Assembly (NCBI RefSeq): GCF_026616195.1 | Contig: NZ_JANHDH010000002.1 | Location: 62,001-126,000, forward strand | DNA from: Haloarchaeobius amylolyticus | GTDB lineage: Archaea; Halobacteriota; Halobacteria; Halobacteriales; Natrialbaceae | Length of the DNA stretch: 64,000 nt | Direction of reading: 5' to 3' | Translations under genes and position numbers: made by a program | Notes under the pieces: generated by a model | The model's input: the letters and a program-made list of their open reading frames with translations, nothing else | Databases searched by the model: none | Told to the model about the DNA's origin: nothing | Shown: piece after piece, positions 4,400-50,237 of the stretch | How positions within the stretch are numbered: the first letter of the stretch is position 1 | How the letters are laid out: each line of letters opens with the position of its first letter

Positions 4400-4420
4400 G
4401 CTGGGGCGGATTCGAACCGC
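4400..4420 (-). repeat. Truncated tRNA-Val 3'-end duplicate
   Basis: Twenty-one bases here are identical to 4505-4525 inside the tRNA-Val gene, covering the 3' acceptor strand and the TPsiC arm. The copy is in the same orientation as the tRNA, about 105 bases downstream of it. Between the two lies a hairpin, TTGCGGC/GCCGCAA (4469-4495). No other part of a tRNA is present, so this is a fragment and not a gene. It resembles an attachment-site remnant. Confidence 0.75.
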
Positions 4421-4501
4421 GGTCGCAGCGGAGCTGCTCCCTGGTTCGAATCCTTCCAGATGACGGATTTGCGGCTCGCGGATTGCTCGCCGCAAAATCA
4501 G

Positions 4502-46763: not shown

Positions 46764-47012
46764 CGAGGCGGGATTTGAACCCTGTGCAGACGGTCCGGGC
46801 GTGCGGTCTCACCTTCGTTCGACCGTTCCGGGCTGCGACTGCTGGTGTTCAGATCCCTCTGTGAGGGCGTTCTCGCTCACGGAGACGAGCAGACGCTACG
46901 CGGTGCTCGTCGAGTAGTTCGCTTGAGAAAGCGCCCGAGGCGGGATTTGAACCCGCGTCACGACCGTGACAGGGTCGTATGATGGGCCACTACACCACCC
47001 GGGCTCCCTGCA
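46764..47012 (-). repeat. tRNA-Asp direct repeat, copy A
   Basis: This 249-base segment recurs at 47936-48168. On the + strand it starts with CGAGGCGGGATTTGAACCC (46764-46782), a 19-base copy of the tRNA-Asp 3' end, then about 150 bases of flank (for example CTGCTGGTGTTC and CTCGCTCACGGAGACGAGCA) and the full tRNA-Asp gene. The copies diverge mainly in the 46791-46835 segment. Confidence 0.85.
46932..47004 (-). tRNA. tRNA-Asp (GTC), copy 1
   Basis: A 73-base cloverleaf on the minus strand. The acceptor stem is GCCCGGG with TCGGGC (near-complete pairing), the D-arm is GGTGTAGTGGCCCATCAT, and the anticodon stem-loop is CGACC-CTGTCAC-GGTCG (anticodon GTC). The T-arm is GCGGGTTCAAATCCCGC and the discriminator base is G. 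Identical over its full length to the copy at 48087-48159. An A/T box (CATAAAAGT on the minus strand, about 47035) lies about 30 bases upstream. Confidence 0.96.
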
Positions 47013-47151
47013 CTCATTGCTAACTGCCGGGTACTTTTATGCCTTTTCAATCGTCGGTCCTGTGTCCCGCGTTCTCACGGGTCCAGAACCGCGAGCCGCG
47101 AGGCTACGCGGGTCGGTCGTCGAAGAATGAAACTACGTCGGTCGTCGAGCC

Positions 47152-47346
47152 TTAGAGGCGGACGACGTTCGCAGCGCGCGGACCCTTCGGGGAGTCCTCG
47201 ATTTCGAACTCTACTTCCTGCCCTTCCTCGAGATCCGGACCGCCAACGTCCTCCATGTGGAAGAAAACGTCCTCGTCCGCGTCCTCGGTGTCGATGAAGC
47301 CGTAACCGCCAGTGTCGTTGAAGAAATCAACCTTGCCTGTCGCCAT
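47152..47346 (-). CDS. Cold-shock domain protein, copy 5
   Basis: A 64-residue cold-shock domain nearly identical to copy 1 ([22 protein letters not shown]) but ending KGPRAANVVRL. RNP1 and RNP2 are intact. Many silent positions match copy 1, 21 kb away, which suggests gene conversion or a recent duplication. It lies between the two tRNA-Asp repeats together with the nuclease-like gene, both on the minus strand. Confidence 0.95.
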   Translation of the reverse strand: MATGKVDFFNDTGGYGFIDTEDADEDVFFHMEDVGGPDLEEGQEVEFEIEDSPKGPRAANVVRL

Positions 47347-47404
47347 TGCTTCTGAGACGAGAGGCCCCGGACGGATAAGCGTTCCTAGAGGACTGGTACC
47401 ACGA

Positions 47405-47845
47405 CTATCGGTCCCGGGAGGGTCGTCCCCCGAAGTACCGCTCCACGAGGAACTCTGACGCCCAGTTGACCCGCGACAGGGGAGCCTTCGGCTGTGGGTC
47501 GTCGACCCGGAGCCGCATCTCGCCATCTCCGGTCTCCGTGACCGGAACCCAGTACGCGTCCCCGGTCTCGCGTGAGTGGACGGCGTAGGCGTCGATCTGG
47601 TCGGCCGAGTACGGCACGTCGACCCGTCCATCCGACCCGACGGTCGAACTGTACAGGTTGAACCGGACCGTACCGTTCACCCAGCTCCCCGTCTTGCACT
47701 GGACCCGGTGGAGCCGGTCGCCATCGTCGACGATCAGGTCGTAGCGGTCGCTGTCCCCGAACGGGACCGATACCGACAGCCCGAGCCGCATCAACTCGGC
47801 GAGGACGAGCGCTTCGGTCTCGTCGCCCTTCCGTGAGGTGTTCAC
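47405..47845 (-). CDS. PD-(D/E)XK nuclease-like protein (group I intron-associated type)
   Basis: A 146-residue protein that fits the PD-(D/E)XK nuclease fold of the group I intron-associated endonuclease type (PDDEXK_5). It starts with an N-terminal helix (RKGDETEALVLAELMRLGLSVSVPFGDSDRYDLIVDD) carrying the acidic site E and D, then HRVQCKTGSW (Q-x-K, about residues 47-56). The start codon is GTG (47843-47845). This type of nuclease has been found near introns and mobile elements and as resolvase-like proteins; catalysis is inferred from the motif pattern. It lies 58 bases upstream of cold-shock copy 5 and inside the tRNA-Asp direct repeat. Confidence 0.76.
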   Translation of the reverse strand: MNTSRKGDETEALVLAELMRLGLSVSVPFGDSDRYDLIVDDGDRLHRVQCKTGSWVNGTVRFNLYSSTVGSDGRVDVPYSADQIDAYAVHSRETGDAYWVPVTETGDGEMRLRVDDPQPKAPLSRVNWASEFLVERYFGGRPSRDR

Positions 47846-47935
47846 GTCGAGGCTTGCGCGTTATCGGGGAAGAACTCGGGGGCGAGACGTCTCCGACTCG
47901 ATTGCTGCTCGTGGTCGTGAAATGGGAGGAGTGTC

Positions 47936-48168
47936 CGAGGCGGGATTTGAACCCTGTGCAGACGATCTGGCTCGCTTCGCTCGCCGGCTGCGACTGCTGG
48001 TGTTCGAATCCCTCTGTGGGGGTCTTCTCGCTCACGGAGACGAGCACACGCTACGCGGTACTCGTCGAATAGTTCGCTTGAGAAAGCGCCCGAGGCGGGA
48101 TTTGAACCCGCGTCACGACCGTGACAGGGTCGTATGATGGGCCACTACACCACCCGGGCTTCCTGCAA
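47936..48168 (-). repeat. tRNA-Asp direct repeat, copy B
   Basis: A second copy of the unit at 46764-47012, in the same orientation: a truncated tRNA-Asp 3' end (CGAGGCGGGATTTGAACCC, 47936-47954), the shared flank (CTGCTGGTGTTCGAATCCCT, CTCGCTCACGGAGACGAGCA) and the full tRNA-Asp. It is about 16 bases shorter than copy A. Centre-to-centre distance is about 1.17 kb. Confidence 0.85.
48087..48159 (-). tRNA. tRNA-Asp (GTC), copy 2
   Basis: A 73-base gene identical to the one at 46932-47004, with the same arms and GTC anticodon. It has its own A/T-rich upstream element (CCTTAATACTGCG on the minus strand, about 48190), so both copies can be transcribed. Two identical tRNA-Asp genes are unusual in such compact genomes and arose here from the direct repeat. 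Confidence 0.96.
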
Positions 48169-48440: not shown

Positions 48441-48668
48441 ATGGTAGACGTAAGCCAACATGAAATGGTTCCGGAGCACACCGTCCTCGACGAGGACGAA
48501 CTCGAGGATGTGCTCACGGAGTACGACATCGATAGCACAGACCTGCCGAAGATCAAGCGCACGGATCCCGCGCTCCCCGACGACGCCGAGGTCGGCGACG
48601 TCATCAAGGTCGTCCGGGACTCGCGAACAACAGACGAGGCGGTCGTATACCGACTCGTGGTGGAGTGA
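48441..48668 (+). CDS. rpoH: RNA polymerase subunit H (Rpb5 homologue)
   Basis: A 75-residue subunit H, the C-terminal part of eukaryotic Rpb5, which helps form the lower jaw of the polymerase. The signature [20 protein letters not shown]...[11 protein letters not shown]...[24 protein letters not shown] is complete. It is the first gene of the operon. The rpoB2 start codon follows the stop after 3 bases, so the genes are tightly linked. Confidence 0.96.
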
Positions 48669-48671
48669 ACA

Positions 48672-50237
48672 ATGGACCGATCAAAACGACGCGCGATTTC
48701 GAAGGAGTACTTCTCGAAGGACAGACTCGCAGAACACCACTTCCGTTCGTTCAACGCGTTCCTCATGCGGGGGATGCAGGAGGTCGTCGACGAGAAGGCG
48801 ACCATCGAGACGGACATCGGCGACAAGGAAGGCGAGGAACCGGTGCACGTCGAGCTGGGCGACGTTCGCGTCGTGACCCCGCGTGTGCGCGAGGCCGACG
48901 GGTCCGAAGAACTGCTCTACCCGCAGGAGGCTCGCCTGCGCAACATCACCTACTCCGCGCCCGTGTTCATGGAGATGTCCATCGTGAAGGGCGAGGAGGG
49001 CGAGGAGCGCGTGGTCGACTCCACGGAGACGAAGGTGGGCCGGATGCCCATCATGGTCGGCTCCGAGAAGTGTAACATCGCGGGCTTCTCCGACGAGGAG
49101 CTCATCGAGATCGGCGAGGACCCCGCCGACCCCGGTGGCTACTTCATCGTCAACGGCTCCGAGCGCGTCCTGATGACGAGCGAGGACCTCGCCCCGAACA
49201 AGATCCTCGCGGAGTACGACACCAAGTACGGCGACGAGATCCAGGTCGCGAAGACGTTCAGTCAGCGCCGGGGGTACCGCGCGCTGGTGCTGACCGAGCG
49301 GAACCGCGAGGGCCTGCTCGAGGTCTCGTTCCCGTCGGTCTCTGGCAGCATCAACTTCGTGACGCTCGTGCGCGCACTCGGCCTCGAATCCGACGAGGAG
49401 ATCGTCCACCGCGTCAGCGACGACCCCGAGGTCGTCAAGTACATGCTGGAGAACCTGGAAGCCGCGGAGGTCCAGTCCCAGGAGGAGGCCATCGAGAAAC
49501 TGGGCAAGCGCGTCGCCTCCGGGCAGGGCAAGAACTACCAGCTCAAGCGCGCGAACTACGTCATCGACCGCTACCTCCTCCCGCACCTCCACGAGGACGG
49601 CGTCGAGGAGGAGGACGTGCGCATCAACAAGGCGTTCTACCTCTGCCGGATGGCCGAGGCGTGTTTCGAGCTCGCACTCCAGCGCCGCGACTCGGACGAC
49701 AAGGACCACTACGCCAACAAGCGGCTGAAGGTCTCCGGCGACCTGATGAAGGACCTGTTCCGGACCGCGCTGAACAAACTGGCGCGTGACGTGAAGTACC
49801 AGCTCGAGCGCGCCAACATGCGCAACCGGCAGCTCTCCGTGAACACGGTCGTTCGTTCGGACGTGCTGACCGAGCGCCTGGAGCACCCCATCGCGACGGG
49901 GAACTGGGTGGGTGGCCGCTCCGGCGTCTCCCAGCTGGTCGACCGGACGGACTTCATGGGTGTGCTGTCGCACCTGCGCCGGCTGCGCTCGCCGCTCTCG
50001 CGGTCGCAGCCGCACTTCGAGGCACGCGACCTGCACGCGACCCAGTGGGGTCGCATCTGCCCCTCCGAGACCCCGGAGGGACCGAACTGTGGGCTGGTGA
50101 AGAACTTCGCCCAGGCCATGGAGCTGTCGCAGAACATCGAGGACGAACAGGCGCTCAAGCGCGAGCTCGCGTCGATGGGGGTACAGGGTATCCCCGGACT
50201 CGAGGGACAGGGTCAGGAGCAACCCGCGGACGACTAA
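48672..50237 (+). CDS. rpoB2: RNA polymerase subunit B'' (N-terminal half of Rpb2)
   Basis: A 521-residue chain corresponding to the lobe and protrusion of Rpb2. It begins MDRSKRRAISKEYFSKDRLAEHHFRSFNAF and shows GGYFIVNGSERVLMTSEDLAPNKIL (about residues 155-180), FLRR/SQRRGYRALVL and the DNA-facing ATQWGRICPSETPEGPNCGLVKN (about 455-477). In haloarchaea and many methanogens rpoB is split here, so a separate B' chain follows. The end is Gln/Glu-rich (LEGQGQEQPADD). It is translated next to rpoH and rpoB1 with 3-base gaps. Confidence 0.97.
   Translation: MDRSKRRAISKEYFSKDRLAEHHFRSFNAFLMRGMQEVVDEKATIETDIGDKEGEEPVHVELGDVRVVTPRVREADGSEELLYPQEARLRNITYSAPVFMEMSIVKGEEGEERVVDSTETKVGRMPIMVGSEKCNIAGFSDEELIEIGEDPADPGGYFIVNGSERVLMTSEDLAPNKILAEYDTKYGDEIQVAKTFSQRRGYRALVLTERNREGLLEVSFPSVSGSINFVTLVRALGLESDEEIVHRVSDDPEVVKYMLENLEAAEVQSQEEAIEKLGKRVASGQGKNYQLKRANYVIDRYLLPHLHEDGVEEEDVRINKAFYLCRMAEACFELALQRRDSDDKDHYANKRLKVSGDLMKDLFRTALNKLARDVKYQLERANMRNRQLSVNTVVRSDVLTERLEHPIATGNWVGGRSGVSQLVDRTDFMGVLSHLRRLRSPLSRSQPHFEARDLHATQWGRICPSETPEGPNCGLVKNFAQAMELSQNIEDEQALKRELASMGVQGIPGLEGQGQEQPADD

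Follow-up and report, generated by a model that had tools for sequence, protein, structure and literature searches.

Haloarchaeal PD-(D/E)XK nucleases linked to tRNA genes and tRNA introns: probable homing endonucleases related to I-Ssp6803I

The homing endonuclease I-Ssp6803I, whose solved structure is 2OST, is encoded by the group I intron of the tRNA-fMet gene of Synechocystis (PMC1995217), and that article cites Bonocora and Shub 2001 for the specificity of the enzyme for the tRNA anticodon region. In the collaborative (trans) homing of phage group I introns, a free-standing nuclease gene lies beside an intron without an open reading frame, an arrangement regarded as a possible intermediate towards a composite intron (PMC3984707). 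Archaeal bulge-helix-bulge introns that carry homing endonuclease genes have been mentioned (PMC6125680), and the mobile archaeal rRNA introns combine such an intron with a LAGLIDADG endonuclease gene inside a structural-RNA gene. Similar introns have also spread among the tRNA genes of the Thermoproteales (Fujishima 2010, as reviewed in PMC4090602), where the movement of archaeal tRNA introns is described as unknown.

The haloarchaeal nucleases described here share with I-Ssp6803I profile homology, fold, the E/D/Q/K residues and a link to the anticodon region of a tRNA gene (PMC1995217). Whereas I-Ssp6803I resides in a self-splicing group I intron, the haloarchaeal nucleases are mostly free-standing, beside intronless tRNA genes or tRNA genes with short bulge-helix-bulge introns, and the family covers at least six isoacceptors of tRNA, with a single one in each clade. 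The resemblance to phage collaborative homing lies in the free-standing nuclease next to an ORF-less intron and in one locus (L010) that looks like a composite intron; however, the haloarchaeal tRNA introns are protein-spliced and are not group I introns, and the target would have to coincide with the intron site. The mobile rRNA introns differ in having an rRNA host and LAGLIDADG enzymes, in contrast to the tRNA host and PD-(D/E)XK enzymes of haloarchaea. For the Thermoproteales the mechanism is given as "still unknown" in PMC4090602, whereas the haloarchaeal introns have a candidate enzyme linked to them. Since no group I intron was seen at the nuclease loci, haloarchaeal genes annotated as "group I intron-associated PD-(D/E)XK endonuclease" would need to be re-read.

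The locus under study lies in a 64,000-nucleotide stretch (the window) of the Haloarchaeobius amylolyticus contig NZ_JANHDH010000002.1, from a genome of 4.6 Mb with 50 tRNAs (Table 1). As reported in a preliminary description of the window, tRNA-Asp repeats enclose a cold-shock gene and a nuclease gene with a GTG start, and no integrase is present among the genes between the repeats. The two tRNA-Asp(GTC) genes are identical in sequence. The 249- and 233-bp repeats described earlier correspond to a 182-bp and a 35-bp segment taken together. Each tRNA-Asp gene is followed by an echo unit, composed of a hairpin, an inverted T-arm and a copy of the same tRNA's own T-arm and acceptor end; the two truncated tRNA ends agree with the 3' end of tRNA-Asp in 20/24 and 22/24 nucleotides. 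Such units lie downstream of about half of the tRNA genes of this genome, at +70 to +280 nt. The element had been proposed to be shared with tRNA-Val and tRNA-Arg, and the former match is real (21/24) while the latter is weak (17/24). The window also holds an archaeal RNase P RNA gene, at 1531-1847 (RF00373, 190.5 bits).

Table 1. Positions of features at the tRNA-Asp locus and of related elements in the window.
Feature	Position	Strand	Basis
tRNA-Asp(GTC), copy upstream of the nuclease gene	48086-48159	-	ARAGORN, Rfam
3'-end echo unit after first tRNA-Asp (hairpin, inverted T-arm, tRNA 3'-end copy)	47936-48085	-	sequence comparison
Inverted T-arm within this unit	~48001-48012
tRNA 3'-end copy within this unit	47936-47959
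PDDEXK_5 nuclease, I-Ssp6803I-like, 146 aa, GTG start	47405-47845	-	Pfam E = 3.2e-34
Cold-shock protein, 64 aa	47152-47346	-	Pfam CSD E = 1e-20
tRNA-Asp(GTC), second copy, downstream of the nuclease and cold-shock genes	46931-47004	-	ARAGORN, Rfam
3'-end echo unit after second tRNA-Asp	46764-46930	-	sequence comparison
Direct repeats, 182 bp, 95% identity	46831-47012 / 47986-48167
Direct repeats, 35 bp, 94% identity	46764-46798 / 47936-47970
Echo unit after tRNA-Val	4407-4500
rpoH, divergent neighbour of the tRNA-Asp locus	48441-48668	+
rpoB2, divergent neighbour of the tRNA-Asp locus	from 48672	+
Region containing rpoH and rpoB2	48441-50237	+

The window nuclease matched the Pfam family PF11645 (PDDEXK_5) along its full domain, with 118 bits against a cut-off of 26. 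A profile built from 16 haloarchaeal homologues was used to search the PDB and matched one solved structure, 2OST (E = 8.6e-12). The AlphaFold2 model of the window protein (pLDDT 88.9) has a predicted PD-(D/E)XK fold like that of 2OST, and 2OST accounted for the best four Foldseek matches (E = 1.4e-10, TM 0.74), followed by Hjc resolvases. In structure, the window nuclease is closest to I-Ssp6803I, a homing endonuclease from the tRNA-fMet intron of a cyanobacterium. The predicted catalytic residues are E11, D36, Q49 and K51, of which D, Q and K align with 2OST, where residues of this E/D/Q/K type are catalytic. All four were kept in 153 of 157 homologues, and the lack of conservation that the preliminary description would have counted against its mini-island proposal was not seen. 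Close pairs of nucleases had dN/dS values of 0.09-0.26, and frameshifted or stop-bearing copies also occur.

A protein-motif scan of the genome collection gave 69 haloarchaeal nuclease loci, and by Pfam search the family was present in 192 of 391 genomes of the class and in none of 14 control genomes, with a patchy distribution within genera. A search for the family beside tRNA genes elsewhere had been suggested, and among 157 distinct haloarchaeal homologues (a distant plasmid-borne subgroup with no tRNA nearby, L017 and L018, was left out) all but one adjoin a tRNA gene. By chance, about 0.4% of positions in the window genome lie within 700 bp downstream of a same-strand tRNA gene. The adjoining tRNA was Asp(GTC) for 110 nucleases, Pro(TGG) for 24, Lys(TTT) for 12, Asn(GTT) for 5, Arg(TCT) for 3 and Ser(TGA) for 2, and no upstream tRNA on the strand opposite to the nuclease was found in the contexts of the haloarchaeal homologues. 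In Asp and Pro loci the nuclease adjoins the 3' end of the tRNA gene, and it lies upstream of the tRNA in the Arg, Ser and some of the Lys loci. The tRNA label changes seven times on the nuclease protein tree, which is the minimum, compared with a mean of 45 after shuffling; the inner forks of this tree are weak because the alignment has only 138 columns. The Asp loci all occupy one syntenic place, so that inheritance accounts for much of their tRNA linkage. Loci L110, L114-L116 and L122 were considered as exceptions without a tRNA and were rejected, since an intron-containing tRNA-Lys had escaped the intronless scan. The tRNA-Arg of L266 was called as Gly by ARAGORN because of its intron, and its exons match tRNA-Arg(TCT). 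The window genome has a second PDDEXK_5 gene (G000:C1:1854104-1854661), with a longer open frame, 94 bp downstream of tRNA-Pro(TGG) on the same strand, and a two-domain PDDEXK_5 version occupies the tRNA-Pro(TGG) site in two further loci of the genus (L019 and L020).

Viral relatives of the nuclease were also found in tRNA clusters: halovirus HSTV-4 has one that lies 2 bp after a tRNA-Asn gene, and several IMG/VR contigs carry them inside arrays of tRNA genes. Viruses are thus possible carriers of the family. The relatives in viral tRNA arrays include L332, L333, L335, L337 and L338, so that the tRNA linkage extends beyond haloarchaeal chromosomes. The HSTV-4 nuclease was considered as a member of the Halorubrum Asn clade; it does not join this clade, and has a long branch of unsure placement.

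The tRNA-Asp gene adjoins rpoH-rpoB2 in most Halobacteria examined, in one to four copies with or without a nuclease, and in most of the loci compared these divergent neighbours fix the position of the locus across the Halobacteria. Among loci also holding rpoB2, nuclease identity had a correlation of only r = 0.14 with the identity of the adjacent rpoB2 (1326 pairs). The rpoB2 genes of Natrialba asiatica (L102) and of N. aegyptia and N. taiwanensis (L107 and L112) are 100% identical, with 46-47% identity of the nucleases; for two Haloarchaeobius the values are 99% and 48%, and for Natronobiforma and Halogranum they are 85% and 78%. Judged from these comparisons, lineages have exchanged nuclease alleles at the rpoH/tRNA-Asp site, whose position is fixed, an apparent horizontal spread at one site, independent of the flanking genes, as is characteristic of homing genes. 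Homologous recombination in the flanks could also exchange alleles at this site without cleavage. The view that an arrangement common to all relatives would be old and stable and not mobile applies to the position of the locus, which is old and syntenic, and fails for the nuclease. The order tRNA-Asp, nuclease, tRNA-Asp is indeed shared by 6/6 congeners; the cold-shock gene is not.

A search of related haloarchaea for an empty site had also been suggested, and a clean pair of occupied and empty loci of one genus (L174 and L286) was found, such that the gene is present or absent at a fixed site next to the tRNA, again as for homing genes. The sequence leading to tRNA-Asp, together with the tRNA gene itself, is 97% identical between the two loci. 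L174 has about 485 bp more, a segment that may reflect either a gain or a loss and that comprises the nuclease gene and about 30 bp on either side. The tRNA-Asp gene is not duplicated here, and the segment lies over 200 bp downstream of it, flanked on both sides by a 15-bp sequence of which the empty locus has one copy. This type of repeat was not seen at the other 135 Asp loci, and the generation of direct repeats by nuclease insertion was rejected, as a repeat of at least 11 bp was found at only 1 of 136 Asp loci, near the chance level. Genomes with and without the nuclease have identical tRNA-Asp sequences, and resistance through an altered tRNA-Asp was rejected because the same variants occur in both groups. 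The Asp, Pro and Ser tRNAs beside nucleases carry no intron. With tRNA-Asp intronless and the same in both groups, simple cleavage of the tRNA body by the Asp enzyme would also hit the enzyme's own locus.

The tRNA genes beside Lys-, Asn- and Arg-clade nucleases all carry an intron in the anticodon loop, directly 3' of the anticodon, against base rates of 5-13% for introns in these tRNAs. Intron patterns in the 391 genomes numbered 27 for Lys, 20 for Asn and 51 for Arg; one further Lys match, in G081, looks spurious and is outside the count. In the 391-genome sample, 10/10 nuclease-adjacent tRNA-Lys genes have the intron (for short introns this count holds by construction of the context reading), 17 other genomes have it, and no intronless tRNA-Lys was found beside a nuclease. 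The association gave a Fisher p of ~4e-13 under the assumption of independent genomes, which genomes are not. Among 15 Haloferax genomes, four have both intron and nuclease, two the intron alone (in one of which the contig ends), nine neither, and none the nuclease alone. In Halorubrum, 11 genomes chosen as nuclease-free are also without the tRNA-Asn intron, and one genome (G353) has this intron without the nuclease. Two loci that are collinear at about 86% (L016 and L315) differ chiefly by a 36-nt tRNA-Asn intron and by a nuclease insert of about 510 bp between tRNA-Asn and tRNA-Met. The intron is present in 3/3 tRNA-Arg genes beside a nuclease. Introns without a nearby nuclease are commoner than introns with one.

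The combination expected of collaborative homing, a nuclease beside an ORF-less intron with both absent in relatives, was thus seen for Lys in Haloferax and for Asn in Halorubrum, and not in the intronless Asp clade to which the window gene belongs. One genome (L010) has a 451-nt tRNA-Lys intron, called by ARAGORN, that contains the nuclease gene; this intron is placed in the anticodon loop 3' of the anticodon, and its ends have the same predicted bulge-helix-bulge fold as the short introns. The nearest relatives of the enclosed nuclease are free-standing nucleases beside tRNA-Lys genes with short introns (48-52% identity). In L266, L274 and L277, the tRNA-Arg(TCT) has an intron and the nuclease ends no more than about 10 bp from where the tRNA starts. 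The 3' end of the Arg(TCT) intron, GAAGAC, resembles that of tRNA-Lys introns, hinting at transfer between tRNA genes. Within the genus of the window this intron is patchy, being present in G002, G004 and G005 and not found in G000.

The homology and fold, the residues, the clade-specific tRNA linkage, the exchange of alleles, the presence and absence at fixed sites and the co-occurrence with introns all come from sequence analysis, and from them we infer cleavage and homing. The window nuclease is probably a free-standing homing endonuclease of the PD-(D/E)XK (I-Ssp6803I) type, from a haloarchaeal family in which each clade is associated with a single tRNA gene. The enzyme would make a double-strand break in or near the element-free allele of its cognate tRNA locus, and repair from an element-bearing copy would transfer the nuclease gene. 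In the Lys, Asn and Arg clades, the repair would also transfer the intron, which would interrupt and so protect an anticodon-loop target. In one genome, the gene would have moved into the intron, to give a composite mobile intron spliced through its bulge-helix-bulge. As the Asp clade, including the window gene, has no intron, homing there would be intronless and would involve some immunity determinant. The free-standing, intron-partnered and intron-embedded forms may represent stages of one homing-endonuclease family. It is fairly likely that these enzymes spread haloarchaeal tRNA introns, each clade at one tRNA, and that the whole series has been preserved, from a free-standing gene next to an intronless tRNA, via a gene with a separate intron, to a gene within the intron.

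A role as a host gene, in which the I-Ssp6803I fold was domesticated for a tRNA-related function, the tRNA neighbour inherited and alleles exchanged by ordinary homologous recombination, would fit the strong purifying selection (the dN/dS values above), the one syntenic Asp locus and the absence of an intron or of a changed tRNA at Asp. It appears unlikely in view of the absence of the gene from about half of the genomes of the class, its patchiness within genera and its decayed copies, and it sits poorly with six different tRNA genes and minimal switching between them, with the tie to introns at three tRNAs and the location inside one intron, and with viral relatives beside viral tRNA genes. 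The viral relatives also weigh against a defence nuclease that shields tRNA genes against integrating elements, for instance by cleaving incoming DNA at tRNA 3' ends that resemble attP. In archaea, integration often targets tRNA genes (PMC8371274), and the position of the Asp- and Pro-locus nucleases next to the 3' end of the tRNA would suit such a function, but the Arg, Ser and some Lys nucleases lie upstream of the tRNA, and the intron association points to the anticodon loop and not to the 3' end; this explanation is very improbable.

The preliminary description had put forward a tRNA-Asp mini-island, with the repeats as attachment sites, the nuclease and cold-shock genes as cargo and an excisable circle of 1.17 kb. 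The repeats and the two enclosed genes are real, and 32 entries among the Asp loci have tRNA-Asp on both sides of the nuclease. The second, downstream tRNA-Asp is nevertheless absent from most Asp loci, tandem tRNA-Asp genes are common in nuclease-free genomes, where echoes also exist, no integrase was found between the repeats, such repeats are not restricted to occupied sites, and the cleanly defined insert holds the nuclease alone, away from the tRNA. The supposed passenger, the cold-shock gene between the nuclease and the second tRNA-Asp, was found only in the window genome and G002 among six genomes of the genus. As about half of the tRNA genes of the genome carry 3'-end echoes, and as tandem tRNA-Asp occurs at the locus with and without the nuclease, the window repeats are not attachment sites specific to this pair. 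They are a tandem duplication of tRNA-Asp and its echo unit that encloses the gene by chance, and a mini-island of this kind can hardly be entertained. The parts of the earlier proposal that gain support are the nuclease as a candidate driver, its tRNA linkage in other genomes, its conserved catalytic residues and the existence of a clean empty site.

A homing role of the nuclease family would offer a testable explanation for the spread of archaeal tRNA introns. A specific enzyme, its target genes and natural occupied and empty pairs in Haloferax and Halorubrum make tRNA-intron movement directly testable, and one of these genera is a genetic workhorse. If true, this would be a first mechanism for tRNA intron gain in Archaea, would carry PD-(D/E)XK homing endonucleases beyond a single cyanobacterial intron to a family widespread among archaea and viruses, and would show, within that family, how a free-standing nuclease evolved into a mobile intron. 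The open literature that was searched held no report of such tRNA-linked nucleases in archaea; subscription papers were outside this scope, and priority is not established.

The nuclease was rejected as the cause of tRNA-Asp duplication, because multiple copies are common without it too. Echo units were likewise rejected as nuclease products, as many tRNA genes have echoes and no nuclease, and at Asp loci their frequency is not higher with the nuclease (26/103 nuclease-bearing loci against 13/30). A pattern search for echo units on viral contigs gave only ordinary tRNA genes or a chance match. Echo units may be absent, single or tandem (three in L009, for example) and differ between close relatives, being swapped, lost or tandemly repeated between L250 and L300 and between L174 and L286. 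The pattern resembles an insertion of small modules at the 3' ends of tRNA genes. In the Natrialbaceae (L015, L124 and others), an unusual amplification was observed, with up to four tRNA-Asp genes in tight tandem by rpoH, partly overlapping in the ARAGORN calls.
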